From assembly GCF_024195295.1 (NCBI RefSeq), contig NZ_JAMFTH010000004.1, positions 62,001-126,000 on the forward strand: a stretch of DNA of 64,000 bases. The letters run 5' to 3'. Both the position numbers and the translations under genes were made by a program. Positions within the stretch are counted from its first letter, which is position 1; each line of letters opens with the position of its first letter. Of this stretch, positions 41,155 to 64,000 are shown one piece after another. The notes under the pieces are model-generated. The model saw only the letters and a list, made by a program, of their open reading frames with translations. It made no database searches and was not told where the DNA came from. Source of the stretch: Gilvimarinus xylanilyticus. GTDB lineage: Bacteria; Pseudomonadota; Gammaproteobacteria; Pseudomonadales; Cellvibrionaceae.

Positions 41155-41230
41155 ATCACTTCCTCTTATTGAATGCGTAGAAAAGCTTAATATAGCCTTC
41201 GATTATGACACTGGCAAACCGGGCTAAAAA

Positions 41231-44399: not shown

Positions 44400-44444
44400 C
44401 TTCTCTCCTGTGTTCACTCTATTTTTCTCTCTCATCCATCCCGG

Positions 44445-47818: not shown

Positions 47819-47821
47819 GGG

Positions 47822-50143
47822 TTACTCCCTTATTTTCTGCGCCCAGGGCGCCAACGCAAAAGCCAATACAATTCCCACCAACACCACCAAACCAAAATTG
47901 TGTATGGCCGCCGTAGCGCTTAAGGATAAAAGGCCAAAAGATAGCACGGTGGTGGCCGTGGATAAACCGACCGCCAGAAAGGTAGCCTGCGATCGGGCGG
48001 CGCTCTCGCGCCAGAACAAGGCGTAATCCATACCAATGCCCAGCACCAACAGCAGCGCCATAATATGAAACACGCTAATCGCCTGCCCCAAGAACAACAC
48101 CGCCGTCAGGGCAATGCCGCTCGCCAGCGCCGCCGGTAGCACGACCCGGACCGCGCCCCGCACTCCGTAGCGCGACCACAATAAAACCAAAATTACCGCA
48201 TAGGCGCCCAGCAATAAAACACTGGCGCGCTCGCGATACTCGCGCAGCAACTGATTGGTACGCGTCACCGGGTCCACCCAGCGCACACCAGGCACGGTTG
48301 CAGCAAAAGCGGACAGCGCGGCCCCATCTTGCAACCCGTAGAGGGATATCACGCCATAGTGTTTACCCCGATTGACAAAGTAGCCGGGGGCTGAGGGCAG
48401 CTGGGCATAGCGGGACAGTTCGGCATCGACATCGATAAACACCGGCGATGATAACGATGCAATAAAACCTGATTGGGCGGCGGATTTGACCCCCAGGGTT
48501 TCATACATGGATGCCAAAAGGCCGCTGTCGATCACCCTATCCTGCCAAATCTCGGCATTGCGTCGCTGGCGCTCCCCAGACGGTAGCAGCTTGGCCAGCG
48601 AACGATAGCTGTGCATGTACCCCGCCTGCACCCCGGCATCCAGCTGGGGCTGAAGGGCCTCAAGGCGCTGCAATAATGTTTCCGCACTGGACGCCTGCAC
48701 CAGCAAATAAGGCAGTGCCGGCTGTACGGCAAGCGCGCCGCGAACCCGCTGATCCATCGCCTGAAGTTGAGGATCGGCGCGCTGCATCTGCCGAATATCA
48801 TCGTTTACTTGCCACACCGACGCCCCCACCCCCAGCAGTAAAACAACCACAATGGTCAGTGCCGGGGCAGTCAGCTTGGACAGCAACCCAAGCTGCAGCC
48901 GGCTAATCTGCGCAATCCACTTGCTCAGCACCGGCCCTAAACTAAAACCCGCAGGCCGGGACAAAAGCTTGGGGTAAAAACCAATTACCACGGCGTAGGC
49001 AACGACTAACCCGCTCCCTGAAAGCACCGCAATTTGCACAAATCCGGGAAACCCCGAGGCGGTAAAGCTTAAATAACCCGCGCCGCTAGACAGCACCCCC
49101 AGGGTTAGTGGCGCGATCAGCTGACGCAGCCCCTCATCCGATCGCCAGCGTTTTCCGGCGGCAAAACGTTTACTAAAAAAATGCAGGCTGTAGTCAATAG
49201 CCACCCCCACCAACGCCGCCCCAAACACCAACGCCATGATATGCACCTGGCCAAACACCCATTGGGTCATCGCCAGGCCAGCCACTACACCTGCGGCTAT
49301 GGGCGCAAATGCCAGCGGCAATACGCTGAGTTGGCGGAACACCAACAGCAGCAACACCACAATTCCCACCGCCGAACCCAGCCCCACGGTGGAGACTTCG
49401 GCGCGCGCCTGTGCTGTGCCCGAAAGGGTATAAAAAATCGCCCCGGTATCCAGGCGTTGATAACCGGACAAATCGCGCAAAGGCGCAAAGGCCTTTGCTA
49501 ACACCTGGGCAAACTGAGTTTGGGTGGCCACCGAATAAGGCGAGGCCGCCAACTCAATGCGCAGCACGTAAAACTTTTGTTGCTCTAAGTTGATGTACGG
49601 AAAACCGGCGCCGTCAATTTGCAGCGCTTCGGGAGCGGCTAATGCCCGCCTCTTAAAAGCGGCCAGGGTTTGCAATGGGTCATTGGCTAGCGCATCGCGA
49701 TTAATGCCCCCGGGGCGAGTCAACACATCCCGCAGGGTGCTACGGCGCAACGATTCCAGCGACTGGTTTTGCAGTTTTTGTCGCCAGGCATCGGTTAAAA
49801 AAATGGGTGCGTTATCGGAATACAGGTCGCTAAAATGATCTCCCTCCGCCCCCAGGCCCAATTGCGGGGTCTTAATACACGGGCAATCTTGCAGGCGGGT
49901 AATAACCTGTGGCAACCGCTCTACGACTGCTCGATTATCATCGGCGCCCACTAACAACAGAGCCTGGTTCGCAAAGCTTTGCGATAATTGGCGCTCGGCC
50001 TGTTGTTCTGCTGCAGAATGGTTTTGCTGGGGAAACAGCGCCAGCAAGTCGGTGTTGATCTCCAAGCGAGGCAGCATCCACAATCCGGCCAGCAACATAA
50101 AGGTCGCCAGCAGTCGGCAACACCACACCCACGGGGTCAGCAT
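47822..50143 (-). CDS. MMPL/RND-superfamily exporter
   Basis: 773 residues with twelve membrane helices in two halves, each with a large periplasmic loop (30-240 and 430-620), the plan of MMPL-type lipid exporters; GVAIDYSLHFF and GIGMDYALFW carry the intramembrane Asp-Tyr residues expected for proton coupling. Probably moves the aryl-polyene lipid across the inner membrane. LolA gene directly precedes it with one-base overlap. Confidence 0.9.
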   Translation of the reverse strand: MLTPWVWCCRLLATFMLLAGLWMLPRLEINTDLLALFPQQNHSAAEQQAERQLSQSFANQALLLVGADDNRAVVERLPQVITRLQDCPCIKTPQLGLGAEGDHFSDLYSDNAPIFLTDAWRQKLQNQSLESLRRSTLRDVLTRPGGINRDALANDPLQTLAAFKRRALAAPEALQIDGAGFPYINLEQQKFYVLRIELAASPYSVATQTQFAQVLAKAFAPLRDLSGYQRLDTGAIFYTLSGTAQARAEVSTVGLGSAVGIVVLLLLVFRQLSVLPLAFAPIAAGVVAGLAMTQWVFGQVHIMALVFGAALVGVAIDYSLHFFSKRFAAGKRWRSDEGLRQLIAPLTLGVLSSGAGYLSFTASGFPGFVQIAVLSGSGLVVAYAVVIGFYPKLLSRPAGFSLGPVLSKWIAQISRLQLGLLSKLTAPALTIVVVLLLGVGASVWQVNDDIRQMQRADPQLQAMDQRVRGALAVQPALPYLLVQASSAETLLQRLEALQPQLDAGVQAGYMHSYRSLAKLLPSGERQRRNAEIWQDRVIDSGLLASMYETLGVKSAAQSGFIASLSSPVFIDVDAELSRYAQLPSAPGYFVNRGKHYGVISLYGLQDGAALSAFAATVPGVRWVDPVTRTNQLLREYRERASVLLLGAYAVILVLLWSRYGVRGAVRVVLPAALASGIALTAVLFLGQAISVFHIMALLLVLGIGMDYALFWRESAARSQATFLAVGLSTATTVLSFGLLSLSATAAIHNFGLVVLVGIVLAFALAPWAQKIRE

Positions 50144-50757
50144 TAGCGAGTCTCGCGATCCGGGTAACTGAACTCGAGCAAGGTGTAGTCGTCATCGGAT
50201 TCGGCAATGGTCACCTGAGTAATCAGCCCGCCGCTGCCGGTCACCAACAAACGATCCACCACATCAGCCAAAGGCGCCTTTTGTGGGACCAGCGCCATAT
50301 GCCATTCATTATTTGCGGCGGGCGCCAAATAGAGCGTAAACACGCTATAAAGTTGTTCGGGCTTTAGCGCAAAAAGCTGTTCAAACATACGAAAAAAACC
50401 GTACACCGAAGGCTCGGCCGAGGGTGTGATCACTTCTTGCTCGCCATCTACCAAACGGACAATCTTTTCGCCATTAACTTTATAGCGAACCGCGAAGGGT
50501 TCGTGCAGTTGCCAATCAATCGTGCCCTCAGCGGACAGAGCAAAAGATCCCTTGCCAATAATCGGCTCTGCCAGTACCGAGAGATGCTTTTCCTGGCGGA
50601 CATCTCCCCCGAGAGGAAGCGAATCCCGTACCGCTTGCGCGATAGATTCCAACCTATCGCGTTGGGCGTCACTGTTTACCGGATAATCCAACACTCCCTG
50701 GGCTGCGCAGCCCAGAGAGAAAAATAAACCGCCCAGAAACACCCCAAAACGTATCAT
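50143..50757 (-). CDS. LolA-like outer-membrane lipoprotein carrier
   Basis: 204 residues: signal peptide (1-20) and an open beta-barrel LolA-type domain (VRQEKHLSVLAEPIIGKGSFALSAEGTIDW, VRYKVNGEKIVRLVDGE). Likely carries the hydrophobic product or its lipid across the periplasm. Overlaps the thioesterase gene by 4 bases. Confidence 0.87.
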   Translation of the reverse strand: MIRFGVFLGGLFFSLGCAAQGVLDYPVNSDAQRDRLESIAQAVRDSLPLGGDVRQEKHLSVLAEPIIGKGSFALSAEGTIDWQLHEPFAVRYKVNGEKIVRLVDGEQEVITPSAEPSVYGFFRMFEQLFALKPEQLYSVFTLYLAPAANNEWHMALVPQKAPLADVVDRLLVTGSGGLITQVTIAESDDDYTLLEFSYPDRETR

Positions 50758-51191
50758 GCATTCCTCCGTTGGGTTTGATAAGCGGCTACTTTCTCACCCA
50801 AAATAGGCGGCGTGGCGAAACACATTTCGCCGTTCTGTAAATCTACCGCTACCTGAGTGCTATAGCCTTTGGTCAGGCGTTCACCCGTCTCAACATCAAT
50901 AATCGTGTAGCTGATTTTTAACCGCACATCCCACTCCTCCAGTTTCGCTTCGATGCGAATGGTGCGATTAAAGCGGGCGGGTTTAATGTACTTTAAGCGT
51001 ATATCCACCACCGGAAACCCATAGCCAGAATCGCGCATAGTGAGGTAGTTGTAATCGATCGCATCCAGCAGCTCGCAGCGTGCCTGCTCAAAGTATTTGA
51101 CATAGTTTCCATGCCAGACGATGTCCATACTGTCGACATCGAAAAAAGGCACCTTTACCTCTTGCGAAACCACAATAGGCGCATCAGTCAT
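50754..51191 (-). CDS. 4HBT/YbgC-type acyl thioesterase
   Basis: 145 residues, hot-dog thioesterase with the active-site signature VDSMDIVWHGNYVKYFEQARCELLD. Probably hydrolyses stalled or finished acyl thioesters (ApeK role). ATG 51191 overlaps the ammonia-lyase stop by 8 bases; a longer frame would start well inside the previous gene. Confidence 0.88.
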   Translation of the reverse strand: MTDAPIVVSQEVKVPFFDVDSMDIVWHGNYVKYFEQARCELLDAIDYNYLTMRDSGYGFPVVDIRLKYIKPARFNRTIRIEAKLEEWDVRLKISYTIIDVETGERLTKGYSTQVAVDLQNGEMCFATPPILGEKVAAYQTQRRNA

Positions 51192-52740
51192 TGGGATACA
51201 ACTCCCAGTGTTGGGCCCGGATACGCGACACACTGTCGCGCAGGGCCGATTCCAGCGGACGGTCTTCTTCTACCGTGGCAAAGTACTGCTGAACCTGGTC
51301 ACACATATCCTGCAGGGGCAAAGTAATGGCGTCAGCGTTAAAATCAGCGTCGCGCCGGCGTAATGTCAGCGCCTGGGTAGCGGCCAGAAGCCCGGCCGCG
51401 GCCACTTGCTCGGTCAACTCCAGCACTCGCTCGCAGTCGCGCGCAGCAATGGTACCCATACTCACCTTGTCTTGATTATGGCACTCGGTGGAGCGGGAAA
51501 ACACACTGGCGGGCATGGTGTGTTTAAGTGCTTCGGCAGTCCAGGCCGAGGCGCCAATTTGCACCGCCTTAAAACCGTGGTTGATCATCGCCCGGTCCGC
51601 GGTGGCACCGGATAAGTTCGCAGGCAGACCATTGTTAAACTTCACATCCATTAGCAGCGCCATTTGCCGATCAATCAAGTCGGCGATATTCGCCACCGCG
51701 GTTTTTAGCGCATCCATAGCAAAAGCGATATGACCACCGTAAAAGTGTCCGCCGTGCAGCACATGTTCGCCTTCACCATCGATAATGGGATTGTCATTGG
51801 CGCTGTTTAATTCGGTTTCGATAAACTGGCGCAACCAGGGTAAAGAATCTTGCAACACGCCGATAATGTGCGGCGCACAACGCACCGAGTAACGGTCTTG
51901 CAGGCGGTCGGAGTTGCGCGCGACTTCACCGGCGTCCAGGTCGTTGTGAATCCAACGGGCGATCTGCCCCTGCCCCGGGTGCGGCTTAACCGAAAACAGC
52001 TTGCCATCAAAGTGATTGCTGTTGCCCTTTAACGCGACGCTCACCATCGCGGTAATACGGGTTGCCAACTTAGCCAGGTATTGGGCCCGGTCAAACGCCA
52101 AGCAAGCCACAGCGGTCATCACCGCCGTGCCATTCATAATCGCCAATCCCTCTTTGGGGGCCAGCTTTAAAGGCGCCAATTTTTCCGCCGCTAGGACCTC
52201 GGCCACCGTTTTGCGCTCGCGGTTATAATAAACATCGCGCTCGCCGACCAAGCTTGCCGCCACATAGGACAGGGGGGTCAAATCGCCACTGGCCCCTACC
52301 GAACCCTCTTCGGGTATCACCGGTACTATGTCGCGCTGAATATAATCAGCCAATCGCTCCAGCAGCTCGACCCGAACCCCGGAATAACCCCGCGACAGGG
52401 ATGCCAGGCGCGCGGCCAAAATCGCGCGGCCGTGTTCACGGTCGAATTCGCGCCCCAAACCACAGCCGTGAAAACGGGTTAAGTGCAGAGGTAACTCCTC
52501 GACCAAATGCGGGGGAATACTCACCGTACAGGAATCGCCGTAACCGGTGGTGACGCCGTAAATAACCCCCTCTTCGCGCCACAGGTCACTGACAAAGCGG
52601 GCACTGGCGTTGATCCGCGCCAGGGCGTCGGCATCATCGGTCAGTCGGGCACCGGCGCCGCGCGCAATCGCGACCACGTCTTCAATGGTGATAGGCGCGG
52701 CACCAAATGCAATATCGGTGGGCGCAGTTTTGCTTGTCAT
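51184..52740 (-). CDS. Aromatic amino acid ammonia-lyase (HAL/TAL/PAL family)
   Basis: 518 residues. MIO prosthetic group from A150-S151-G152 (GASGDLTPLS), catalytic Tyr61 in YGVTTGYGD, and the NDNPI and QDKVS motifs of the family. The pair governing substrate choice reads F90-H91 (LTRFHGCG), unlike the HL of tyrosine, FL of phenylalanine and SH of histidine lyases as I know them. In this cluster it most likely makes a cinnamate-type starter for the aryl head. Confidence 0.87.
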   Translation of the reverse strand: MTSKTAPTDIAFGAAPITIEDVVAIARGAGARLTDDADALARINASARFVSDLWREEGVIYGVTTGYGDSCTVSIPPHLVEELPLHLTRFHGCGLGREFDREHGRAILAARLASLSRGYSGVRVELLERLADYIQRDIVPVIPEEGSVGASGDLTPLSYVAASLVGERDVYYNRERKTVAEVLAAEKLAPLKLAPKEGLAIMNGTAVMTAVACLAFDRAQYLAKLATRITAMVSVALKGNSNHFDGKLFSVKPHPGQGQIARWIHNDLDAGEVARNSDRLQDRYSVRCAPHIIGVLQDSLPWLRQFIETELNSANDNPIIDGEGEHVLHGGHFYGGHIAFAMDALKTAVANIADLIDRQMALLMDVKFNNGLPANLSGATADRAMINHGFKAVQIGASAWTAEALKHTMPASVFSRSTECHNQDKVSMGTIAARDCERVLELTEQVAAAGLLAATQALTLRRRDADFNADAITLPLQDMCDQVQQYFATVEEDRPLESALRDSVSRIRAQHWELYPND

Positions 52741-52746
52741 AATCGG

Positions 52747-53673
52747 TTAACGCTCCTGACGATTTTTTCGCTGGGGCTTATCAATGCCCCAGTAGTCGTA
52801 AAAATTAAACCACTGTAGGGGTTCGGCGCGGCAAAGGCGCTCCAACTGGGTGATATAGTTGCCCAGCAAGCGACGGCAGGTTTGCTCGCGCTCGCGCCTC
52901 GGCACTTTTTGGCCGTCGTAAAGAGGCGTCATTTCGGCGCGATAGCCCGCGCGGCTGCGATACCCGGCGAGAAAATAAACCGGCGCCTCTAACATTAAAG
53001 CCAACCAAAAAGGGCCCACCGGAAATTGTGCCTTGCCGCCCAGAAAGTTTTCACTAAAAAAGCGTTTCTGATTCTCCGGCGGCAAACGATCGGCCAATAA
53101 AATCAAAAACTCACCGTCGTTCAGTTTTTGCTGCAATAACATCGCCGTTGCCGGGGTAATATCGCCCACCTGAATCAGCCGCATTTGTACTTGATCGCTG
53201 GCACTGTCGAGCAGACGATTGAATTTTTCGGTATTGGCCGTGTGCAAAATAACATTGAGTTTGAGTATCCCTTCATTTTCTACCACCGCTCGGCACATTT
53301 CCAAGTTGCCGAAATGAGCGCCCAGTAATACCGCGCCTTTGTTTTGCTCTTGCAGCTGCAATAATTGTTTATGCCCGGTAAACGCGACATCGGAGCGCTG
53401 AATGCGCCCCATCCAAGCCCCTAAGCGATCGAGCAAAGCGGCAGCAAAGCTTAGATGATGCCGCCACACCTGCCAGGTATTACTTGTAGCCCCTGCGCGC
53501 TGTAGGTAATCGCGACTGTAACGTCGGGTTGCGGCGCGGGTGAGAAAAAAATACAACACCACCAGGTAGACTACCGGCTGAACCAAATAGCGCCCGCCGT
53601 GACGATACACCCAAAACAACAGGCGCATACCCAGGGCACTGCCCCGCTCGCGCTCTTGGTGCCAGTTACTCAC
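52747..53673 (-). CDS. LpxL-like acyltransferase (LPLAT superfamily)
   Basis: 308 residues: N-terminal membrane helix (35-55), then the HxxxxE-type motif in LLGAHFGNLEMCR and LADRLPPENQKRFF of Lpx late acyltransferases. In several APE clusters a glycosyltransferase is fused with this domain; here the two are separate adjacent genes overlapping by 8 bases. Probably attaches the acyl chain to a lipid carrier. Confidence 0.85.
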   Translation of the reverse strand: MSNWHQERERGSALGMRLLFWVYRHGGRYLVQPVVYLVVLYFFLTRAATRRYSRDYLQRAGATSNTWQVWRHHLSFAAALLDRLGAWMGRIQRSDVAFTGHKQLLQLQEQNKGAVLLGAHFGNLEMCRAVVENEGILKLNVILHTANTEKFNRLLDSASDQVQMRLIQVGDITPATAMLLQQKLNDGEFLILLADRLPPENQKRFFSENFLGGKAQFPVGPFWLALMLEAPVYFLAGYRSRAGYRAEMTPLYDGQKVPRREREQTCRRLLGNYITQLERLCRAEPLQWFNFYDYWGIDKPQRKNRQER

Positions 53674-54409
53674 CGCGAGACCTCAGACGGCGCCAAATTA
53701 ATACCGGGGCACGCCACAACATACCCAATACCAGCCGGGTATGCATCCAGCTAATCGCCACATTATCGCCCCACAAGCGAAAGTTAGACACCCCATGTTC
53801 CGGGTAAACAACTTTGGTAGGCAGGCTAAGCACGGTATGCCCGCGCCAGAACAGCCGCACCATCACCTCGGTATCAAAATCCATCCGTCCGCCCAAGCGA
53901 ACATCGTGGGCCAGATCCAACGTAGGCTTTAATGGGTAAACCCGAAAGCCACACATGGAATCTTTAATCTGCAGTGACAGGGTTTCAATCCACACCCACA
54001 CGTGGGTTAAGTAGCGACTGTAAAAGCGATGTTTAGGCACCGACTCATCGTACTGGGGCACGCCGGTGATCAACGCTGCGGGGTTTTGCCGGGCAAGCGC
54101 TAACAGCTGCGGCACATCCGCACTGTCGTGTTGACCATCGGCGTCTATTTGCAGCGCGTGGGTAAACCCCAACCCCAGAGCATGCTGCATACCCGCCAGC
54201 ACTGCTCGCCCTTTACCGCCATTGGGGTATTGTTCGACCAATTCACAACCTGTGTCACGCTGTAATCGCCGCAGATTTTCGCGCGCGCACTGATCGCCGC
54301 CATCGTTGACTAACACGCAGCAAAGACCCTGAGCCATTAGCGCATGGACCACGGGTGTCACTAGATGGGCGTGGTTATAAACCGGAATGACCGCACAGGC
54401 TTTAAACAC
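53666..54409 (-). CDS. Family 2 glycosyltransferase
   Basis: 247 residues, GT-A fold: start VIPVYNHAH, nucleotide loop VNDGGD, DxD in IDADGQHD, and a basic end. It could build the glycosyl part of the lipid carrier. GTG 54409 is preferred (GGAGAGGG shortly upstream, product begins right at the first beta strand); an ATG 18 codons earlier would overlap the dehydratase gene by 62 bases. Confidence 0.83.
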   Translation of the reverse strand: MFKACAVIPVYNHAHLVTPVVHALMAQGLCCVLVNDGGDQCARENLRRLQRDTGCELVEQYPNGGKGRAVLAGMQHALGLGFTHALQIDADGQHDSADVPQLLALARQNPAALITGVPQYDESVPKHRFYSRYLTHVWVWIETLSLQIKDSMCGFRVYPLKPTLDLAHDVRLGGRMDFDTEVMVRLFWRGHTVLSLPTKVVYPEHGVSNFRLWGDNVAISWMHTRLVLGMLWRAPVLIWRRLRSRGE

Positions 54410-54764
54410 CTTGGCCCTCTCCAGCAAATAGCAAAGCGCCTTTGGCGGTGACTCCGCGGGCATTGTGGTAGGTAAACTTGACCAGGCCCTTTGCCGGTTG
54501 GTAATCGAGCGTTAACTCCATGGTGACAGGCGGGCGAACCAGCTGTTGGAATTTATTAGAGCGCAAACTTTTAAAAGGCGTTTTAATATCAAAATAATCC
54601 ACCGCCAGCTCGTGCACCCAGGCTACTTGAACCACACCGGCCAACACGGGCAGGCCGTCAAAATGGCCCTGAAAACACGGGTTTTCGGGGGTTAAGTCGA
54701 AGCGCCAGCGCACTAAGTGTTCGCGCGCTTCCACCAGGCGAAGAGAGTCGGGCAAAGCAATCAC
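54402..54764 (-). CDS. apeI: Hot-dog thioester dehydratase, ApeI-like
   Basis: 120 residues, FabA/FabZ-type hot-dog: CFQGHFDGLPVLAGVVQVAWVHE carries the catalytic His (GHF). Second dehydratase of the cluster beside ApeP. Overlaps the ligase gene by 4 bases and the glycosyltransferase by 8. Confidence 0.87.
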   Translation of the reverse strand: MIALPDSLRLVEAREHLVRWRFDLTPENPCFQGHFDGLPVLAGVVQVAWVHELAVDYFDIKTPFKSLRSNKFQQLVRPPVTMELTLDYQPAKGLVKFTYHNARGVTAKGALLFAGEGQGV

Positions 54765-56146
54765 GCGGTCACCTCAAACAGCTTCACAATATCCCCCTGG
54801 GGCAGTTTGCCCTGGCTGTTGCGCGGCAACTGTTCGACAAACCGCCAGCGCCGCGGCAACAGCGGCCCCTCGTAATAGCGCGCGAGGTGCTCACGCAAGC
54901 CCTGGTTCAGGATACGCTTTCCCGAGTGCTTAATAACCTCGAAGGCGTCGTGGGTGATACTCGCCACTATAACCACCTCGTCCCGGCGCCCGCGCTTTAC
55001 CGCCGCGCGGGCCTCCTTGACCCACACATGTTCGACCAGCCGCTGCTCCAACTCGGTTAACGACAAGCGCTTGCCCTCGACCTTGGCAATTAAATCCGCG
55101 CGCCCGCGCAACTCAAAGCGGCCATCGGCCTGCATTTCGGCTTTGTCGCCCATGGTAAACCATGGCAAGTTGCTTAGATGGGCACTTGAGACCTGTAATA
55201 ACCCAGCGTCTGTGGTGCTGACCTCAACCCCCGGCAAGCTCTGCCAAACATTCGACTGACTTTGCCGCCGCCAGGCCACACCACCGGTTTCGGTACTGCC
55301 CAGAATTTCATAGAGGGGCGCAGGGCATCGGCTTTCCATGGCCTGCGCAGCGTCGGCTGTTAACAGTCCGCCGGAGGAAAAAGTAACCGAAATATTATCG
55401 CTCGCTTGCACAAACGGCTCGCTGCAAGGCAGGCGGGCTAAATGGGTGGGGCTGGACACCAATACCGCCCCGGGATGGGCCTGCGCCAGCGCGGCGAGAG
55501 GTTCGGGAAAATGACAGACTGAATCGACAAACGCAGCCCCGCGCGCCAACGGCCACAAAATGACATGCAAGAGGCCGTAAATATGCTGATGGGACACCGT
55601 GGACACGACGGGGCGCTGATCCAGCTCGGCACCCCACACCCCATGAAGCGCGGCCAACTCGGCTTCCAGATCGTTAAGATTTTTTATAATCGGGGCGGGC
55701 TCGCCCGTACTGCCCGAAGTAAAAAGCACCAGTTGTACATTCCGCGAAAAACACACCTCGGGGGGATTTTCTGTACTTTCTTTCCCCGCTAACGCCAGGG
55801 CACGGATTTGCCACTGGGGGCAGGTGAGATTATCCAGCGGGCTATCGCTGATCAGCGCATCGATGTGTGGCTGCAGCTCGGCGGCGGACTGGGGCTGCAG
55901 ATTCTGCGGCATAACAATTTTTTTGCCCGCCAGCGCCAGGGCCAGTAATACCGTTAAAAAGTCGTAGCCCGACGCCAACCAAACGCCCACGCGCTCTTCG
56001 GAAGATCGCCGTAGACTGTGATACAGGGCAAGCACATCAGCGCGCAGACGGGTGCGATTGAGTGGTTCACCGTCCCGGTAGGCGATCACCCTTTCATCCC
56101 CCCCAAATGCGAGGCGACGTAAATTGTTACTGAATTTAAAGTCCAT
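54761..56146 (-). CDS. apeH: AMP-dependent acyl/aryl-ACP ligase, ApeH-like
   Basis: 461 residues of the ANL superfamily: P-loop LVLFTSGSTGEPAP, A5 region LYEILGSTETGG, A8 FELRGRADLIAKVEGKRLSLTELE and a C-terminal lysine in RNSQGKLPQGD. Probably loads the aryl starter acid onto an ACP. ATG 56146 overlaps the upstream membrane-protein gene by 11 bases; the first 15 codons of the longer frame lie wholly in that gene. Confidence 0.87.
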   Translation of the reverse strand: MDFKFSNNLRRLAFGGDERVIAYRDGEPLNRTRLRADVLALYHSLRRSSEERVGVWLASGYDFLTVLLALALAGKKIVMPQNLQPQSAAELQPHIDALISDSPLDNLTCPQWQIRALALAGKESTENPPEVCFSRNVQLVLFTSGSTGEPAPIIKNLNDLEAELAALHGVWGAELDQRPVVSTVSHQHIYGLLHVILWPLARGAAFVDSVCHFPEPLAALAQAHPGAVLVSSPTHLARLPCSEPFVQASDNISVTFSSGGLLTADAAQAMESRCPAPLYEILGSTETGGVAWRRQSQSNVWQSLPGVEVSTTDAGLLQVSSAHLSNLPWFTMGDKAEMQADGRFELRGRADLIAKVEGKRLSLTELEQRLVEHVWVKEARAAVKRGRRDEVVIVASITHDAFEVIKHSGKRILNQGLREHLARYYEGPLLPRRWRFVEQLPRNSQGKLPQGDIVKLFEVTA

Positions 56147-56696
56147 GTTTTTTCTTAAAATATAATTGGCGGTAGGCAAACTCACCGGCAAACAGTGCCC
56201 CCATTAACCCGTAGGCGATACCGCCATTGTATAACGCCCACACTTCGCGACTGCTGAACAGCGCCGTATACGCGGCGACAGCTCCGTTGCACAGCAAAAA
56301 CACCACCCACAGACGCGTAACCCAGGCCGTGTAAACCTCAACGATGGGCGGCAGCCCCTGAGGAAATTCCAGCCGGGCCATTCGCGCAGGCAGAGTCGGA
56401 GGGTAATACAAGGTGTAGGTAAAGTAGACCGCGACAACGGCATTAATCAGCGCGGGCCAAAGCTTTAGCAATCGCTCGTCGTTAATCCACCAAAGCGCGC
56501 CGGCCAGGGCCATAAACCCGGCGACAATGACAAGGCGCTGGCCTGTATTCGCGGCTTTCACGCCCAGCCTTGCCCCGTAAATCCCAGCCAAAGCCAGGCC
56601 TATATAGCGCGGCTCTAGCCACTTGGTGCCCAGGTAAACCAGCGGCGGATACAAAATAAGTATCGCCACCGCGACTATCCCCAGGCTGCGGGTCAC
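56136..56696 (-). CDS. COG4648-type membrane protein
   Basis: 186 residues with four to five membrane helices (8-26, 30-45, 57-75, 78-95, 130-150). Homologues occupy the same place in APE clusters (ApeG position) and have no known activity. Overlaps the ACP gene by 4 bases. Confidence 0.75.
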   Translation of the reverse strand: MTRSLGIVAVAILILYPPLVYLGTKWLEPRYIGLALAGIYGARLGVKAANTGQRLVIVAGFMALAGALWWINDERLLKLWPALINAVVAVYFTYTLYYPPTLPARMARLEFPQGLPPIVEVYTAWVTRLWVVFLLCNGAVAAYTALFSSREVWALYNGGIAYGLMGALFAGEFAYRQLYFKKKHGL

Positions 56697-56944
56697 TTGG
56701 CCCTCAGCAGCTCATCAATCACGTTAACGGCGTCGCCAATCGTGCGCACGCCCTTAAACTGCTCGGGCTTCATTTGCTGACCGGTAACATTGTGAATTTT
56801 GGCCGCCAGGTCAATGGCATCAATGCTGTCAAAATCCAGATCGGCGTACAGGTCTGCCTCGGGCGAAATGTCATCGGCGTCAATCATAAACGATTGCACC
56901 AAGACATTTTTTAACTCGGTGTAAATTTCTTCTTTGGTCATCAT
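56693..56944 (-). CDS. apeF: Acyl carrier protein, ApeF-like
   Basis: 83 residues, acidic four-helix ACP with the phosphopantetheine Ser in LDFDSIDAIDL. One of two ACPs in tandem, suggesting separate starter and extender roles. Closely packed with the neighbours. Confidence 0.88.
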   Translation of the reverse strand: MMTKEEIYTELKNVLVQSFMIDADDISPEADLYADLDFDSIDAIDLAAKIHNVTGQQMKPEQFKGVRTIGDAVNVIDELLRAK

Positions 56945-56976
56945 CTTATCTGCGGTTCGGTTTACGGCGATGCGCG

Positions 56977-57240
56977 TTACTGCGAGGCACTTTGTGCCAA
57001 AACAAAATTGCGCAGGCTCGCGACACTGTAAAAATGTTCTTTGTTTTGCTCGGAGTTAGCATCGATTTTGACATTAAAGTTTTTTTGCAACGCCAGTCCC
57101 AACTCCAGAGCATCAATCGAATCCAGGCCCAGGCCATCGCCAAACAGGGGCGCCTCGGTGTCGATATCTTCTATAGCAATATCTTCCAGCTCTAACTCGG
57201 TAATAATCATTTGTTTTATATCGGTATCGATATCAGCCAT
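56977..57240 (-). CDS. apeE: Acyl carrier protein, ApeE-like
   Basis: 87 residues, ACP with modified Ser in GLGLDSIDALEL. Its helix II surface (ELGLALQKNF) differs from that of the next ACP. Overlaps the acyltransferase gene by 8 bases. Confidence 0.88.
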   Translation of the reverse strand: MADIDTDIKQMIITELELEDIAIEDIDTEAPLFGDGLGLDSIDALELGLALQKNFNVKIDANSEQNKEHFYSVASLRNFVLAQSASQ

Positions 57241-58021
57241 AACGCTTTAAACCTTCTGCATAATAGTTCTCTAAGTAGCGCGTCAATAAGCGCGCCGCTC
57301 GGGGTTTATCATCGTACTGTTCAAGCAGCGCGCGCGGCTCGAGACACTCGTAAAAAAAGACATCGATGTGGGCTTTCCGGGGCGGTATCCGATACCAGGG
57401 CTCGCCTTTCACCAAAGTCAGAGGCCGACAGGTAATAAACACCGTCAGCAAGGGTGCGTCCGTGCGCACCGCAACATTGGCGGCGCCACGCTTGAACTGT
57501 AACGCCTGGCCGGGCACGCTGCGCGAGCCCTCGGGAAATATCAACACCGCCTGGCCGTCATCCAGCGCCTGGCGGCAGCCCGTTAGCAATTCATCTCCGC
57601 TGGCATTGCTGATAAAGCCCCCAGCCAGCATCACCCCGCGAATATACAAATTGCGCCACAGCGCGCCTTTTACCACACAATTGGCGCGCGGCAGAAGGGA
57701 AAATAAAATCACCACATCAATCAGCGTCGGGTGATTGGCAATCACCAAGTGCCCCCCGGCGCGCTCCAGCAGCTGGCGGTTGTGCAAATGCACCCGAATC
57801 AACCCCAGCCATTCCATCAGTGCCACGAAGCGGGCAAAGCTAAATTGCTGCAGCGCCCGCACCCGGGCGGCTTTAGCGCCGCGCTCGCCCGGCAGGGCGT
57901 AAATCACCGGAAACACCAATACGCTTTGCGCCAGCGCCAAAAACGAGAAGCAGGCAAAACAAAACCCCGTTGCCGAGGTTCGCCAGAGCCGGTCGCCCCA
58001 GTAACTAATCCTGTGCAGCAC
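57233..58021 (-). CDS. PlsC-like 1-acylglycerol-phosphate acyltransferase family protein
   Basis: 262 residues: two N-terminal membrane helices (15-45), HX4D motif in VIANHPTLIDVV and FPEGSRS. Probably transfers the polyene acyl group from ACP to a lipid. Second gene of the cluster, overlapping the KS-like gene by 17 bases. Confidence 0.87.
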   Translation of the reverse strand: MLHRISYWGDRLWRTSATGFCFACFSFLALAQSVLVFPVIYALPGERGAKAARVRALQQFSFARFVALMEWLGLIRVHLHNRQLLERAGGHLVIANHPTLIDVVILFSLLPRANCVVKGALWRNLYIRGVMLAGGFISNASGDELLTGCRQALDDGQAVLIFPEGSRSVPGQALQFKRGAANVAVRTDAPLLTVFITCRPLTLVKGEPWYRIPPRKAHIDVFFYECLEPRALLEQYDDKPRAARLLTRYLENYYAEGLKRYG

Positions 58022-58745
58022 CGCGCCTCCAACACCACCGATGGTTTCCCGTATCGGCGGTTAACATTTGCTGTGAACCGTGCCACCAGGCCAAAAACTC
58101 GATGAGCAGCGAATTGTGCCCCGCACTTTCCCCGGCATCTTCCATGGTCAGACATACCGACGGCGCCGCAGGCTCGGGCTGGGCGCTTAACACCAGCGCC
58201 AGGGCTGCGGGCATTTCCCGTTCATCGGCATAATCGCGATAAAACTCTGCTAACGGCTCCTCGCTGTGGACCAGTAACACTTGCCGGGCCCCCTGTTGCA
58301 GCCAAGTCTCGGCCTCTCGCCAGGCGGCGGCCAGGGTATCGCGTCCCGCCGCCAGCGCCACCGAGGGCGCCTGGATTTTCTTGATGATACTGAATATGCC
58401 CAGCGCCGAGTTGTGGACCGATAAGCTAAAACCATTGGGTGACAGGGGGGCGTCGGTCGCCAGCGCCTGTAACAGTTTAAACGTCCGCTCAGTATCGCCG
58501 TGGCGCGAGGAGAAAATCACCGGCGCATCGGCCGCCAGGCTCTCGCAGGCGGGTTCGGCCACCTCCAGCGCCTGGCGTCCCCAGCGCGTGAGGCGCCGGC
58601 GAGTCATCGCTGGCACCCCAGCCGCAGCGGGCTTGGCGTCCGTCTCGGGAAGGCAATCGGGGCGAAAATCCGCCCACTGCTCGGCGCTCTCCAGCCCCGG
58701 GGCCCAGGCGCTACAATGAGTTACCCACACTTGCATAAACTGCAT
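58005..58745 (-). CDS. apeC: KS-like chain-length-factor protein, ApeC-like
   Basis: 246 residues, only the N-terminal half of a ketosynthase (PF13723-type). Where active KS enzymes have the Cys nucleophile it reads ALAAGRDTLAAA, so it cannot condense. In known APE systems such a protein pairs with ApeO and sets chain length. First gene of the leftward cluster; two in-frame ATGs three codons apart are possible starts. Confidence 0.82.
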   Translation of the reverse strand: MQFMQVWVTHCSAWAPGLESAEQWADFRPDCLPETDAKPAAAGVPAMTRRRLTRWGRQALEVAEPACESLAADAPVIFSSRHGDTERTFKLLQALATDAPLSPNGFSLSVHNSALGIFSIIKKIQAPSVALAAGRDTLAAAWREAETWLQQGARQVLLVHSEEPLAEFYRDYADEREMPAALALVLSAQPEPAAPSVCLTMEDAGESAGHNSLLIEFLAWWHGSQQMLTADTGNHRWCWRRGAAQD

Positions 58746-58941: not shown

Positions 58942-59844
58942 ATGTTAAGCCTAGATCGACTCAGTTTTGGCTATCGCCCCCACGAGCAGCAGATTGCCGA
59001 TTTAAGCCTTGATCTCGAGGCGGGAGAGGTACTCGGCCTGCTGGGCCCCAATGGGGCGGGCAAGACCACTCTGGTGGGGCTGATTACGGGCCAGTTGCGC
59101 CCGCGAGCGGGGCACGTGCACTTTGATCGCGCTCCGGTGCGCCTGGGCCGGCCGGGCATTGCTCTGGTCCCGCAGGAGTATGCGTTTTATCCGCGTTTAA
59201 AGGTGCGGGAAAATCTCGCTTATTTTGCCGGTTTACTGGCCCTATCGGCCGCCGAACGGCGCCACCGAATTGCCGCAGCCCTGGACCAGGCGGGACTGAC
59301 CGAGCTGGTCGGGCGCCGGGCGGGGGATTTATCCGGCGGCTATAAGCGCCGCTTAAACTTTGCTATCGCCCTGCTGCAAAAGCCGCAACTGCTACTTTTG
59401 GACGAACCCACCGCTAATGTCGACCCCCATTCGCGCCAGGATATCTTAACCGCTGTACGCGAACTGAGTGCAGCCGGTACCGCCATTATTTACACCTCAC
59501 ACCTGCTCGATGAGGTGGAGGCCATAGCCACACAAATCGCGGTGATGCACGCCGGCCAAATTGTACTGCGCGGGAGCACCGCCAAGTTGTTAAGCGACGC
59601 CTCTTCACAGGTAAGATTTAGCACCGAGCAACCACTGCCCCCGCCCCTGTGCCAACAATTGCAACTCGAGTCGCTAGACTCGCAAACTTATTTGTGTGAC
59701 CTGCAAAAAGCCTCGCTTAGCCTGGCGGAGCTAACTCGCGCGCTGGAGCAAGCCGGACATTCCCCCAGCCGCCTCAGTTACGGACAACGCCGTTTAGAAG
59801 AGGTTTACCTGCAGTGCCTGGCACACACAGAGGCAACCGCATGA
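58942..59844 (+). CDS. ABC transporter ATP-binding protein
   Basis: 300 residues: Walker A GPNGAGKTTL, Q-loop LVPQEYAF, signature LSGGYKRRLN, Walker B LLLLDEPTANVD and switch His in YTSHLLDE. It is the DrrA/NodI-type ATPase used with ABC-2 exporters. First gene of a rightward module divergent from the APE cluster across 196 bases; the next gene overlaps it. Confidence 0.9.
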   Translation: MLSLDRLSFGYRPHEQQIADLSLDLEAGEVLGLLGPNGAGKTTLVGLITGQLRPRAGHVHFDRAPVRLGRPGIALVPQEYAFYPRLKVRENLAYFAGLLALSAAERRHRIAAALDQAGLTELVGRRAGDLSGGYKRRLNFAIALLQKPQLLLLDEPTANVDPHSRQDILTAVRELSAAGTAIIYTSHLLDEVEAIATQIAVMHAGQIVLRGSTAKLLSDASSQVRFSTEQPLPPPLCQQLQLESLDSQTYLCDLQKASLSLAELTRALEQAGHSPSRLSYGQRRLEEVYLQCLAHTEATA

Positions 59845-61010
59845 TTGCGCTACTCGCCTCTTTAAAAAAAGAAAGCCTACTGCTGATGCGCGACTGGCAT
59901 GCCCTGGCGCTGCTGTTTCTAATGCCAGCGCTATTTATCATTATCATGTCACTGGCGCTGCAAGATCGCTTTGGCGCCGAGCAAGGGATGGAGCTTGCCG
60001 GTCAATTCAACGATCAGGCATCCACCCGCGACGCTCGCCTATTTCGTCAACAGCTGGAATTGTCACCTTACCTAAGCTTGCAAGACAGCACCCGGCCGCT
60101 GAGTACGAGCGGCGAGCTCTACGCGATAACCCTCACCGCCGACTTTAGCCAGGCACTGGAAGCGCGCACCGACAAGCCAGGGGTGATGCTGCGCTTTGCC
60201 CCCGAACTGGGCGGACGCGAGAGAGCCTTGATCAGAGCCGCGGTGCAAGAAACGGCGGGGCAGCTGCGCGCCACGGCCATCGCCGAAGAGCTCGGCTATG
60301 ATAAGCAATACGCCGAGCAAGAGTTTTTACTGACGCACTTAATCGTTGACGCGACCGATACCCATAGCGACCAGCCGGCCCTGCCTAGCGCGGTCCAGCA
60401 AAATGTGCCCGCCTGGCTGATTTTTGCCATGTTTTTTATCGCTATCCCCCTTTCCACGGCCATCATCGACGAGCGCCAGCAGCGCACGTTTATTCGGTTG
60501 CGCACCTTAGGCACTTCCGTGGGGCTGATCTACAGCGCTAAAATTCTGCCCTACTTTGTTATTAACCTACTGCAACTGGTGCTGATGCTGATGCTGGGTA
60601 TTTTTCTAATGCCCCTGCTTGGAGGCGAGGCTTTGCACTTGCCCGCGCCGCAAATTCCCGCCCTGTTAATAATGGCCGTGTGCACTAGCCTGACCGCCCT
60701 GGCCGCCGCCAGCTTAATTGCCAGCGCGGCGCGCACCACCGAACAAGCCGCTATCGCCAGTGCCGCTGGAAACTTGTTGCTGGCGGCGCTGGGCGGGGTT
60801 ATGGTGCCGGTGTTTATGATGCCGGCGTCTTTGCAGAGCGTGGCCGAACTGTCGCCCATGCACTGGGCCCTGAGCGGTTTTATTGAGTTACTGGTACGCC
60901 AGGGAAGCTGGAGCGATATAGCCGCTCCGGCGTTTAAATTGCTGGGCCTTGCTGCGCTACTGTTTACAGCGGCCTGGGCATTAATACAACGGAGCACGCG
61001 ACATGCCTGA
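59841..61010 (+). CDS. ABC-2-type permease
   Basis: 389 residues: one N-terminal helix (20-40), a large extracytoplasmic domain (45-195) and a block of five to six helices (200-385) with NLLQLVLMLMLG and AAIASAAGNLLLAALGGVMVP, as in ABC-2 exporters. ATG 59841 overlaps the ATPase stop (ATGA) and has GAGG 7 bases upstream. Probably exports the product of the KS/ACP genes that follow. Confidence 0.88.
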   Translation: MIALLASLKKESLLLMRDWHALALLFLMPALFIIIMSLALQDRFGAEQGMELAGQFNDQASTRDARLFRQQLELSPYLSLQDSTRPLSTSGELYAITLTADFSQALEARTDKPGVMLRFAPELGGRERALIRAAVQETAGQLRATAIAEELGYDKQYAEQEFLLTHLIVDATDTHSDQPALPSAVQQNVPAWLIFAMFFIAIPLSTAIIDERQQRTFIRLRTLGTSVGLIYSAKILPYFVINLLQLVLMLMLGIFLMPLLGGEALHLPAPQIPALLIMAVCTSLTALAAASLIASAARTTEQAAIASAAGNLLLAALGGVMVPVFMMPASLQSVAELSPMHWALSGFIELLVRQGSWSDIAAPAFKLLGLAALLFTAAWALIQRSTRHA

Positions 61011-61275
61011 TGCGGTTACCCCCGAACTTAAACACGCTCTCAAGCAAATGATTATCGACGAGTGCGACAAAGACGAACTGAGCCCCACGGATATACAAGA
61101 CGACCAGGCACTACTGGGCGGTGATCTGGATTTGGATTCGCTGGATGTGTTGCAAATCTGCATGGCGGTAAAAACTCAGTACGGGGTGCGAATTGAAGGA
61201 AATACCGCCGCCCAACGAGCGCTCAAAAGTATCGACACCCTGGCCGATACGATTGTCAGGCAAAGTACTCCGTGA
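61003..61275 (+). CDS. Acyl carrier protein of the ABC-KS module
   Basis: 90 residues. Phosphopantetheine site in GGDLDLDSLDVLQI; helices otherwise unlike the two APE ACPs. Overlaps the permease by 8 bases and the KS by 4, so production is coupled. Confidence 0.87.
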   Translation: MPDAVTPELKHALKQMIIDECDKDELSPTDIQDDQALLGGDLDLDSLDVLQICMAVKTQYGVRIEGNTAAQRALKSIDTLADTIVRQSTP

Positions 61276-62423
61276 AGATCAGTATTCGCGCTTTCGAAGC
61301 GCGCTGCAGCCTGGGGGCCTCTGTGGAGCCGGCGGTTACCAACCTGCTTAGTGGCGCCTCATCCCCGCGACAACACACCTTTGACAACCTGCAAGAACCG
61401 GTCACCCTGCCTTACTTTAGCGCCCCGCCCGCGGGTGACTTTTATCGCGCCCAAGCCTCGTGTTTGAACTCGCTACTCGAGCGCGCCCAGCTCAGTCGCA
61501 CTGAACGCCGGCGCACCGCGCTTTTGATGGGTTCTTCATCTTTTGATGTGCATATTTCCGAGAGCCAGTACCGGCGCGAGTTGAACACCCTCGGGCCAGA
61601 GCAAGCGCTGCCTATGCCTATTGTCGGCTACGGCAAAATAGCGCAGCACCTGGCCGACCAGCTGGCACTGGGGCCGCACCGCTACGCCTACTCCACCGCC
61701 TGCACCTCCAGCGCTAACGCCCTACTTTATGCCGCGCGCCTGTTGCAGCAGGATCAGGCAGACCACGCGCTGGTGCTGGGCTGCGAACACCTTAACGCCA
61801 CCAGTGCACTGGGTTTTTACGGCCTGGGATTAATATCCCCGAGGGGTGAAATGGCCCCCTTTGACGCCCGTCGCGACGGTTTGATTTTGGGAGAAGGCAC
61901 AGGTGCGCTACTGTTAAGCAAACCCTCGCAAACGCCGGCAAGCGAGCGGCGCTGGCAGCTGGCCGGAGGCGCGATAGGCACCGACAACTACAGCCTCACC
62001 GCCGCCCATGTCAGCGGCAAAGAAATCGCCAAAGTCATTCGTGCCGCTCTTGCCGACGCCGATATTACCGCTGCCGATATCGCGGCGATTAAACTGCACG
62101 GCACCGCGTCGCTGCTAAACGACGAGGCGGAGGCCGCCGCTTTACATCAGGTGTTTGCCACTCTCCCCCAGGGGTTTGCCCTTAAGCCTTATGTAGGCCA
62201 TACCCTGGGGGCGTGCGGCGCCCTGGAAACCGCGTTGACCCTGGGCAGCCTGGCCAGAGGAACACTACCGGACAACCCCCGAGCGCTTGGCGATGGCGAG
62301 CTGGCCGTGCCTTTACTCAAAGAAAAACGTCCCGCTCAACCTGGTTACTACCTTTTGAATTGCTTTGCCTTTGGCGGTAATAACAATGCTCTGATAATCC
62401 GCGATCAGGGAGCTAACGAATGA
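61272..62423 (+). CDS. Beta-ketoacyl synthase of the ABC-KS module
   Basis: 383 residues with a complete KS triad: C144 (STACTSSAN), H276 (KLHGTAS) and H310 (YVGHTLGACG). GTG start overlaps the ACP stop (GTGA). It is clearly diverged from the three APE ketosynthases: its N-terminal segment is shorter and the loop 90-120 differs. The module has no ketoreductase, dehydratase or ligase of its own, so it either borrows those of the APE cluster or makes a simple beta-keto product. Confidence 0.85.
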   Translation: MKISIRAFEARCSLGASVEPAVTNLLSGASSPRQHTFDNLQEPVTLPYFSAPPAGDFYRAQASCLNSLLERAQLSRTERRRTALLMGSSSFDVHISESQYRRELNTLGPEQALPMPIVGYGKIAQHLADQLALGPHRYAYSTACTSSANALLYAARLLQQDQADHALVLGCEHLNATSALGFYGLGLISPRGEMAPFDARRDGLILGEGTGALLLSKPSQTPASERRWQLAGGAIGTDNYSLTAAHVSGKEIAKVIRAALADADITAADIAAIKLHGTASLLNDEAEAAALHQVFATLPQGFALKPYVGHTLGACGALETALTLGSLARGTLPDNPRALGDGELAVPLLKEKRPAQPGYYLLNCFAFGGNNNALIIRDQGANE

Positions 62424-63262
62424 TCTACCTTATCGACAGCTACTCTCTGCTCAACACCATCGCCCCAAACGCCGACGGACTGCCGGATTTAAAAGCCATT
62501 ATTCAGCGGTGGCACGGCGAGCGCATTCGGCGTATCGACCGCTACATTCAGCTGTGTGTCGCGGGTGGCTTAAGTTGCGTGGCGGGGCGGTCGCTGCCGG
62601 AAAATACCGGAGTCTATTTAGCCAGCCGCAACGGCGCGGTCGCGACCTCGGCGAGAGCCATGAGCAGCATTGAAGCCGACGGCCAGTTGCCCAAGCCTTT
62701 ACACTTTGTAAACACACTGGGCAATTCCGCGGGCTTTTACTTAACTCAATTGCTCGGTCTCACCGGCACAGCAGTGGTCTGTTCGGCGGAGCAGTTATCG
62801 TTTGAAGCGGCTTTGACCCACGCGTGCCTGGATCTGCAAGCGCGGCAGTGCGACACCGCGCTGGTGGGAAGCTTTGACGAAACGCCTCTCCCTGTGCAGC
62901 ACCAACGCCGGCGGTTAAATATCACAGACAGCCAGGCGCCTCTGCTTGAGGGCAGCCACTGGCTTTTGTTATCGCGTCACGCCCAAAACGCTCGGGCAAA
63001 ACTCAGGGCGCCCGAATACACCGAGAGTTTGAGCCAAGCACTACGGCGAGAGGATACGGGTGTGCAACTGGCGTTCTCTCCGAACAAGGCTGAAGCCTCA
63101 AAGCTGCCAGGCAGCCACACTGTTTACAACCCAGTTGAGGGCGCCATCCCTCACGGCAGTTTTTCGGGTGCAGCGCTGGTGGAACAATTGAAACTGCCTT
63201 GCGGCACTCATGTCGCTCGCGAAGGCAAGACCTACTGCACGGTGCGCTGGACATCGGCGTAA
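62420..63262 (+). CDS. KS-like protein lacking the nucleophile
   Basis: 280 residues, N-terminal-half ketosynthase-like. The GNSAGFYLTQLLGLTG segment and CSAEQLSFEAAL keep the KS pattern but E124-Q125 stand where the Cys-Thr pair belongs, as in chain-length factors. Likely heterodimer partner of the KS upstream, with which it overlaps (ATGA). Family placement is inferred from these patterns and gene order. Confidence 0.72.
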   Translation: MIYLIDSYSLLNTIAPNADGLPDLKAIIQRWHGERIRRIDRYIQLCVAGGLSCVAGRSLPENTGVYLASRNGAVATSARAMSSIEADGQLPKPLHFVNTLGNSAGFYLTQLLGLTGTAVVCSAEQLSFEAALTHACLDLQARQCDTALVGSFDETPLPVQHQRRRLNITDSQAPLLEGSHWLLLSRHAQNARAKLRAPEYTESLSQALRREDTGVQLAFSPNKAEASKLPGSHTVYNPVEGAIPHGSFSGAALVEQLKLPCGTHVAREGKTYCTVRWTSA

Positions 63263-63273
63263 AGGTTGCACCT

Positions 63274-64000
63274 ATGGACTCTATTGTCACCGCTTTTCAT
63301 TGGACGCCCGCCGTCGCTCTGGCGCTAGCGGTTTGTCTAGGTGTGGGCGGGCTGATTCACTGGACAACCAAACAAAGTCGATTTCCCGGGAAAGCCAGCT
63401 TTGTTGGCACTCACTTGGCAAGCCTTTGGTGGATGCTCGCAGCAGCGGCCGAACTGGCAGCCCTGCCGCCATCAGTAAAAATGTTTTTCGCCGCGATGGC
63501 TTGGCCCGGAATTGTGTTAATGCCGAGTCTCTGGGCCCTGTTTTTATACCAGTACACGCGCAGCGATTATCGCCCCCTGCATCGAGGTGTTTTGTGGCGA
63601 TTAAGTCTAGCCCCTGTCTGCTTTTGGCTGCTGGCGCTAACAAACCCCTGGCATCACGGCTTTTATACTCATGCCAGTGCTCCTATCAACGCCGACTGGG
63701 GCGCCGCTATTAACTACCATCACGGTCCCCTGTTTTATCTTGCCGCCGTCTACGTATACTGCGTTATGCTCGCCAGTATCGCTATGTTAATTAAAGCGAT
63801 TAAACAAACACGCAGTCTGTACCGAAATCATTTTTTGGCCATGTCCGTGGTCACACTTATTCCCTGGGTGGCGAATATTGGCTACGTATTTTTTGACCTT
63901 ACCTTGTTTGGTTTTGATCCTACGCCTTTTACCTTTGCCTTTTCTTTGTCGGCCTTTATCTGGCTGATTCAACAAGCCCGCTTGTTCGATGCCGTACCCT
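63274..64000 (+). CDS. Sensor kinase N-terminal 7TM region (3' part outside window)
   Basis: 242 residues up to the window edge, seven hydrophobic helices with WHHGFY, PWVANIGYVFF and TPFTFAFSLSAFIWLIQQARLF, which fit the 7TM sensor region (HisKA_7TM type) of some histidine kinases and diguanylate cyclases. The transmitter part is not in the window, so the output is unknown. It starts 11 bases after the KS-like gene with an AAAGG site, so probably in the same transcript. Confidence 0.78.
   Translation, partial: MDSIVTAFHWTPAVALALAVCLGVGGLIHWTTKQSRFPGKASFVGTHLASLWWMLAAAAELAALPPSVKMFFAAMAWPGIVLMPSLWALFLYQYTRSDYRPLHRGVLWRLSLAPVCFWLLALTNPWHHGFYTHASAPINADWGAAINYHHGPLFYLAAVYVYCVMLASIAMLIKAIKQTRSLYRNHFLAMSVVTLIPWVANIGYVFFDLTLFGFDPTPFTFAFSLSAFIWLIQQARLFDAVP

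Follow-up and report, generated by a model that had tools for sequence, protein, structure and literature searches.

The last stretch of a 64,000-nucleotide section of the Gilvimarinus xylanilyticus genome (GCF_024195295.1, contig NZ_JAMFTH010000004.1, positions 62,001 to 126,000 of the forward strand; this section is "the window" below, and positions follow its numbering) holds a compact row of genes for an ABC transporter ATPase, an ABC-2 permease, an acyl carrier protein (ACP), a ketosynthase (KS) and a small KS-like protein. The genome is 3.9 Mb long, in 13 contigs. Our analysis identified the five genes as the darF-darI-darC-darJ-darK part of a cluster for a hybrid pigment joining an aryl polyene (APE) to a dialkylresorcinol (DAR), like the yellow-orange flexirubin-type pigments, with DarJ-DarK and DarC as a proposed condensing unit and DarF-DarI as the proposed export system. 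This reading as a whole is very probable, and we are close to certain of the identity of the set and the pathway to which it belongs. That the condensing step supplies a beta-ketoacyl unit is an even bet, and our assignment of the cargo of DarF-DarI (DAR or the hybrid) could equally turn out right or wrong. The gene families, the tie to DarB, DarG and DarH, the intact residues of the KS and ACP, the likeness of DarK to a chain length factor (CLF) and the lack of a tie to the adjoining sensor gene were all computed directly.

Open reading frames (ORFs), Pfam matches and active-site residues bore out a preliminary description of this DNA as an overlapping same-strand row of ABC ATPase, permease, ACP, intact KS, nucleophile-less partner and a sixth, seven-transmembrane (7TM) gene (Table 1). 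Consecutive genes of the set overlap by 4, 8, 4 and 4 bases, and 11 bases separate the fifth gene from the sixth. The catalytic residues Cys144, His276, Lys305 and His310 of the KS were kept in 27/27 aligned orthologues (the window's own copy and those of 26 named loci, the incomplete copy of L070 being omitted), as was the phosphopantetheine-bearing Ser46 in 27/27 ACPs. The ACP scored 46.5 bits against NF006617, under the cut-off of 70. For DarK, whose nearest named matches were from Gilvimarinus species, Pfam gave just one match, a weak one to ketoacyl-synt (26.8 bits, cut-off 20.8); the cysteine was missing at the matching position in all 30 DarK proteins (Gln125 in the window's own copy), a residue pairing taken from a profile alignment with a probability of just 58%. 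A scan for promoters and terminators found sites no more numerous than in shuffled sequences.

The order of the five genes is conserved beyond chance. The full set was present in 25 of 29 named loci, and the other four (L057, L060, L061 and L070), which lack part of it, are on short contigs or at the end of a contig. DarH and DarB genes followed darK in 27 of the 29; L059 and L065 showed no Dar gene on the stretch examined, and the genome of L059 carries Dar genes on another contig. In the contexts of ten relatives (31-40 kb), the five genes lay beside DarH, DarB and DarA in all ten and APE genes were present in nine, while three short loci held darC-darJ-darK, two of them with DarH and the third at a contig end. 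APE genes were found on the examined stretch at 18 of the 29 named loci. Eight genomes from the 11 loci without them were searched whole, and six had an APE-type KS (E 3e-145 or better); this search omitted L057, L061 and L070 and also took in L049, L060 and L065, where APE genes are on the stretch. The clusters occur in Gilvimarinus, Marinimicrobium, Marinobacter, Porticoccaceae and one Hyphomonadaceae metagenome-assembled genome (MAG); the last (L056), an alphaproteobacterial one, has both the five genes and Dar genes. At L055 and L058, near-copies in the tree, about 1.05 kb separates darJ from darK, unlike at the other measured loci.

The preliminary description knew of no described system with such a content. 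One exists, as the same order was listed in 2014 for the arcuflavin locus of Azoarcus sp. BH72, in a table that reads darF, darI, darC, darJ, darK, with darK given as a hypothetical protein (PMC3949708, Table 1). Within that dar cluster (darA, B, D, E, F, I, C, J, K), the numbers of the ABC ATPase, permease, ACP, KS and small protein continue those of DarA, DarB and a BtrH-like protein, and polyene genes are in the genome too. Two named loci, L081 and L084, have all nine genes as a single same-strand row, DarA-B-G-H-F-I-C-J-K, which is the order of the Azoarcus locus numbers; their J gene scored higher with the ApeO model than with the DarJ model, and its assignment as J follows from its position and the tree. 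The arrangements differ in some respects. In G. xylanilyticus darF and darI are directly adjacent, whereas two toxin-antitoxin-like genes lie between them in Azoarcus, and the set adjoins an APE operon and is convergent to DarH-G-B-A, while the Azoarcus table gives no strands. The polyene half looks tyrosine-derived here, from the presence of an ammonia-lyase gene, but is derived from 3-hydroxybenzoate in Azoarcus.

Co-occurrence across genomes pointed the same way. Of the 77 relatives searched, 14 carry a close DarB (E 2.6e-134 or better), and these are exactly the genomes with a DarK match of E 1.5e-9 or better. Fourteen DarB-like genes of lower similarity (E 2.6e-88 to 3.4e-69) were found in other genomes, all without DarK. 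Of 369 genomes sampled across the class, 21 had a close DarB (4.1e-114 or better) and 17 had DarK (2.4e-22 or better), all 17 within the 21, so that DarK was absent from all 348 genomes lacking a close DarB. The association was strong in both samples (Fisher p 1e-15 and 7e-26, respectively, uncorrected for relatedness), but these values overstate independence because G000 and G067 are in both samples and the species are related. The named loci and the genome samples overlap as well, since the same genomes stand under both labels: L045-L048, L050, L052, L053, L067, L068 and L072 are genomes also sampled, and L059 and L124 (genome G265) are one contig. A match of 2e-4 in G039, weaker second matches, and short matches (9e-9 to 7e-6) in 11 class genomes were left out of the counts.

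DarH proved the closer companion. Among the class genomes with a close DarB (G000 and G067 included), DarK was present in 17 of 18 with DarH and in none of three without it; DarH was searched genome-wide in the exceptions, with an outcome that agrees with the earlier count. The genomes lacking DarK were G307, G284 and G191, in which DarH is absent genome-wide, and G218, whose DarH lies on a 12 kb contig; two of the three DarH-less genomes, G307 and G191, are 82% and 85% complete. In the 19 close-DarB neighbourhoods viewed (all but those of G000 and G067), DarG and DarH were both present in 16, and the whole five-gene set was on the DarB stretch in 10 and elsewhere in five more. It lies about 14 kb from DarB in G159 and on a different contig in G244, G354 and G265; in G433 darK is cut by the contig end on both contigs, and the set may adjoin the Dar genes. 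In G244 and G354 (loci L122 and L123) darF-I-C-J-K ends the APE operon, colinear with it and directly after an ApeR-type KS, and DarABGH are on another contig. Neither DarA nor the set was found on the stretches around 18 weak DarB-like genes (some on short contigs), and DarH was in none of their genomes. As for the polyene, an APE acyltransferase gene was present in all 20 close-DarB genomes besides G000, and an APE-type KS (E 1e-100 or better) in 35 of the 77 relatives, all 14 DarK genomes among them; a tie of the set to APE genes alone was rejected, as 21 of the 35 APE-bearing relatives are without it.

The DAR genes themselves begin just past base 64000, which is why the preliminary description missed this context. 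Convergent to the five-gene set are genes for a DarH-type, BtrH-related acyltransferase (NF053550, 473 bits, cut-off 300), a DarG-family protein (NF053536, 168 bits, cut-off 70) and a DarB-type ketosynthase III (StlD/DarB family NF005293, 582 bits, cut-off 450), and then a gene in the DarA position that is conserved among the loci of relatives. They are followed on the plus strand by genes for a DUF2141 protein, an ApeP-like dehydratase (23.7 bits, under the Pfam cut-off of 27) and a phosphopantetheinyl transferase (PPTase). On the other side of the set lies a divergent APE cluster, in which the scan found an aromatic amino acid ammonia-lyase, ACPs, KSs and an acyltransferase; its ligase, ketoreductase, dehydratase, LolA-like and MMPL-like genes were named by eye. 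Two tandem ApeR-type ketosynthases in it (41231-43674) are 55% identical. The earlier statement that ketoreductase, dehydratase, ligase and thioesterase are lacking thus applies to the five genes only, since the APE cluster holds such genes and a dehydratase and PPTase lie past the window.

This APE cluster would provide the polyene half of the hybrid, and taken together the APE and DAR genes match what a cluster for a flexirubin- or arcuflavin-type hybrid contains, such a pigment being a polyene acid esterified with a dialkylresorcinol (PMC3992019, PMC3949708). The flexirubin clusters of Chitinophaga pinensis and Flavobacterium johnsoniae likewise contain a tyrosine ammonia-lyase, a ligase, an APE-type fatty acid synthase, LolA, an exporter and DarA/DarB (PMC3992019). 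Their product is a polyene-DAR ester. The host differs, ours being proteobacterial. Within the genus, two genomes (G002 and G003) are without DarB, DarK and DarH and retain the APE operon. In these, ApeC and the ApeP-like/PPTase pair are 452-465 bp apart, compared with about 10.5 kb in G. xylanilyticus, and the five-gene set, the sixth gene, the Dar genes and the DUF2141 gene therefore form one block of about 10 kb that is present or absent together. Both the dehydratase and the PPTase are assigned to the APE side, because they adjoin ApeC in these Dar-less genomes. The divergent cluster had been suggested as the source of a product that the set extends or exports. That suggestion comes near the mark, but the set is better described as the accessory genes for the DAR side of an APE-DAR hybrid.

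Table 1. Features of the dar/APE region (window positions unless a contig or locus is named)
Feature	Position	Strand	Evidence and remarks
DarF-like ABC transporter ATPase	58942-59844	+	Pfam ABC_tran 119 bits; first of five conserved genes
DarI-like ABC-2 permease	59841-61010 (inner ATG start)	+	Pfam ABC2_membrane_3 92 bits
DarC-like ACP	61003-61275	+	Pfam PP-binding 22.7 bits, cut-off 20.8
DarJ-like ketosynthase	61272-62423	+	Pfam ketoacyl-synt N and C; Cys144/His276/Lys305/His310 intact
DarK-like half-size CLF-like partner, 280 residues	62420-63262	+	Nucleophile absent
7TM-PAS-GGDEF diguanylate cyclase (gene 6), start	63274 (ATG)-64000, on to contig C8:126902	+	HisKA_7TM (Pfam); 542 residues
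ApeC-like chain length factor, first gene of divergent APE operon	58005-58745	-	Pfam Ketoacyl-synt_2 191 bits
Divergent APE cluster	39880-58745	-	Order conserved in relatives
ApeP-like dehydratase and PPTase	L004 13286-14388 = contig C8 131285-132387, 5.3-6.4 kb past window	+	Neighbourhood scan

No published function of DarJ or DarK was found in literature from 2015, most subscription papers being outside the scope of that search; among the papers listed by a wider search, the name DarJ occurred in two, PMC3949708 and an unrelated one. The best PDB sequence match of DarJ was ApeO (6qsp_A), but DarJ is not in the ApeO clade (NF006618, 198 bits, cut-off 407): in a tree, a 100/99 branch split 38 DarJ rows from ApeO (8 rows) and from the ApeR-type and Fab-type ketosynthases, with three long-branched DarJ rows for which the tool warns of long branches meeting. 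The DarK profile matched ApeC over 138 columns (probability 82%, E 1e-5), and a KS profile was matched too. The AlphaFold model of DarK (pLDDT 91) returned chain B of the ishigamide KS/CLF as the first Foldseek hit, ApeC (6qsp_B) as the third and an AntDE chain as the fourth, although many ordinary ketosynthases matched as well and TM-scores were just 0.5-0.7. In ApeC, Arg30 and Arg31, a conserved pair close to helix 1, have been proposed to contact the ACP (PMC8358021), and by its position the Arg37-Arg38 pair of DarK, invariant in a 13-row alignment and nearly so among 30 rows, is probably the counterpart. DarK thus looks like an ApeC-type half-size CLF, which is new here.

Two characterized systems resemble such a pair. 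ApeO-ApeC also unites a full-size KS with a half-size CLF keeping one thiolase fold (PMC8358021; PDB 6qsp); unlike it, DarJ forms a separate clade, and the G. xylanilyticus genome retains an ApeO-ApeC pair besides. In cispentacin biosynthesis, the AmcF-AmcG heterodimer of a KS and a KS-like protein performs a single C2 elongation on the ACP AmcB, and no ketoreductase is named among the seven Amc genes (PMC10698177), which parallels the five-gene set. DarJ is, however, not a member of the AmcF family (149 bits, cut-off 325), and no AmcH-like ligase is found in the set.

We propose a model in which the DarJ-DarK heterodimer would carry out one or a few condensations of malonyl and acyl units on DarC, leaving the product unreduced. 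The resulting beta-ketoacyl-DarC would be the kind of substrate that DarB is thought to need. DarB joins its substrates by Michael addition and Claisen condensation with an enoyl thioester to give a cyclohexanedione, which DarA then aromatises; Fuchs in 2013 reportedly assigned two substrates to DarB, a beta-ketoacyl thioester among them. The condensing unit would need no ketoreductase or dehydratase, because DarB would take the beta-ketoacyl thioester unreduced. DarJ, DarK and DarC may serve the DAR half of a flexirubin-type pigment or its union with the APE half, and DarH would then join the DAR to the aryl polyene. DarF-DarI, which probably act as the inner-membrane exporter, would carry DAR or the hybrid over the inner membrane, from where LolA/MMPL-type transport could take it to the outer membrane. 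For the LolA-type carriers of flexirubin loci, a part in synthesis or transport has been proposed (PMC11885536).

Several observations speak against this model or parts of it. Orthology to the published Azoarcus, Chitinophaga and Flavobacterium genes rests on gene order and annotation. The narrower DarB model NF053539 was missed (472 bits, cut-off 550), as was the narrower flexirubin DarG model NF053545 (128.5 bits, cut-off 170), and the "DarA" gene, named from its position, had no Pfam or NCBIfam match above cut-off and just weak flavodoxin similarity. Two loci in MAGs (L064 and L066) carry the set and Dar genes, and an APE-type KS and two other APE genes were undetected in these genomes, which may be incomplete. 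Expression of C. pinensis darB and darA in another host yielded DAR (PMC3992019), and a dedicated beta-ketoacyl supply is therefore not strictly needed. A darC mutant of P. chlororaphis still forms resorcinol, in lower amount (PMC6403133; whether this is the same ACP is uncertain). Finally, in G159, G244 and G354 the set stands in or beside APE genes, away from DarABGH, a placement that a role on the polyene side or in the joining step fits as well.

One could accordingly place DarC, DarJ and DarK at the polyene side or the junction, where they would receive the aryl-polyene chain or complete it, so that DarC could hand it over to DarH to be esterified, DarF-DarI exporting the hybrid. We regard this as possible, if rather doubtful. 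It agrees with DarK tracking DarH rather than DarA/DarB alone, with the set closing the APE operon colinearly in G244 and G354 and lying beside APE genes in G159, and with ApeO being the best solved relative of DarJ. DarH is related to BtrH, and BtrH accepts acyl groups from an ACP. However, the APE cluster of G. xylanilyticus already holds an ApeO-ApeC pair, two ApeR-type ketosynthases and two ACPs, APE-bearing relatives commonly manage without the set, and the set sits with DAR genes both in Azoarcus and at nearly all named loci. A role in the joining step may still apply, because darA and darB suffice for formation of the C. pinensis DAR in a heterologous host, the P. chlororaphis darC mutant keeps forming some resorcinol and the set follows DarH, not DarA/DarB.

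The preliminary description favored a circuit in which a small acyl signal is made, exported and detected by the co-transcribed product of gene 6. That gene does encode a 7TM protein, but read past base 64000 it is a diguanylate cyclase with an intact GGEEF motif and not a histidine kinase. Its strand, the 11-base gap and the fact that both cyclase copies known in the genus (2/8 genomes) adjoin the set would suit such a circuit, and dialkylresorcinols have been discussed as bacterial signals (PMC6403133 and PMC9606717, citing Brameyer 2015). Yet the cyclase occupies the gap between darK and DarH at only 2/28 loci (the window's own and L045 of G. algae; the 28 being the window's own and the 27 named loci having this junction), a lack of conservation that the preliminary description itself had named as grounds for refutation. 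The distance is 124 bp or less in 20 of the 27 named loci, and unrelated ORFs fill it at L048, L052 and L060. Together with L045, these three were the wider gaps that were read, out of seven; the others are at L062, L066 and L067. By eye, the ORFs in the gap are LysR/GST/dioxygenase-like (L048, 10851-14089), GH43-like (L052, 10869-12452) and cytochrome-like (L060, 3358-5718). The gap seems to be a site that tolerates insertions, and the cyclase looks like a chance neighbor outside the set, making a sensing circuit very improbable. Still less credible is a stand-alone exporter and condensing module for an unrelated product, placed here by chance: the set does lie on another contig than DarB in three genomes and some 14 kb off in a fourth, but it occurred in no genome without a close DarB in either sample. 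A plasmid origin was rejected, as a plasmid search gave 11 records with nothing but short ABC-ATPase matches; when DarA, DarJ and DarB were compared with plasmids by tblastn, the matches listed were distant relatives, none above 43% identity. A match in Variovorax paradoxus (L136) was not a dar cluster.

The gene set is real and conserved, but it is a known and little-studied part of the polyene-DAR cluster. What had seemed a puzzling new circuit becomes part of a known pigment pathway, whose least understood genes gain testable roles. As the set accompanies DarH rather than DarA/DarB alone, it may mark the genomes that make the joined pigment. Somewhat tentatively, darF-I-C-J-K might even be a genomic switch that separates producers of ester-type (flexirubin-like) APE-DAR from producers of free DAR, built on a reduction-free KS/half-CLF/ACP unit distinct from ApeO-ApeC. 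If so, a beta-ketoacyl or junction acyl unit would be required only when DarH joins DAR to the polyene, coupled with ABC export.

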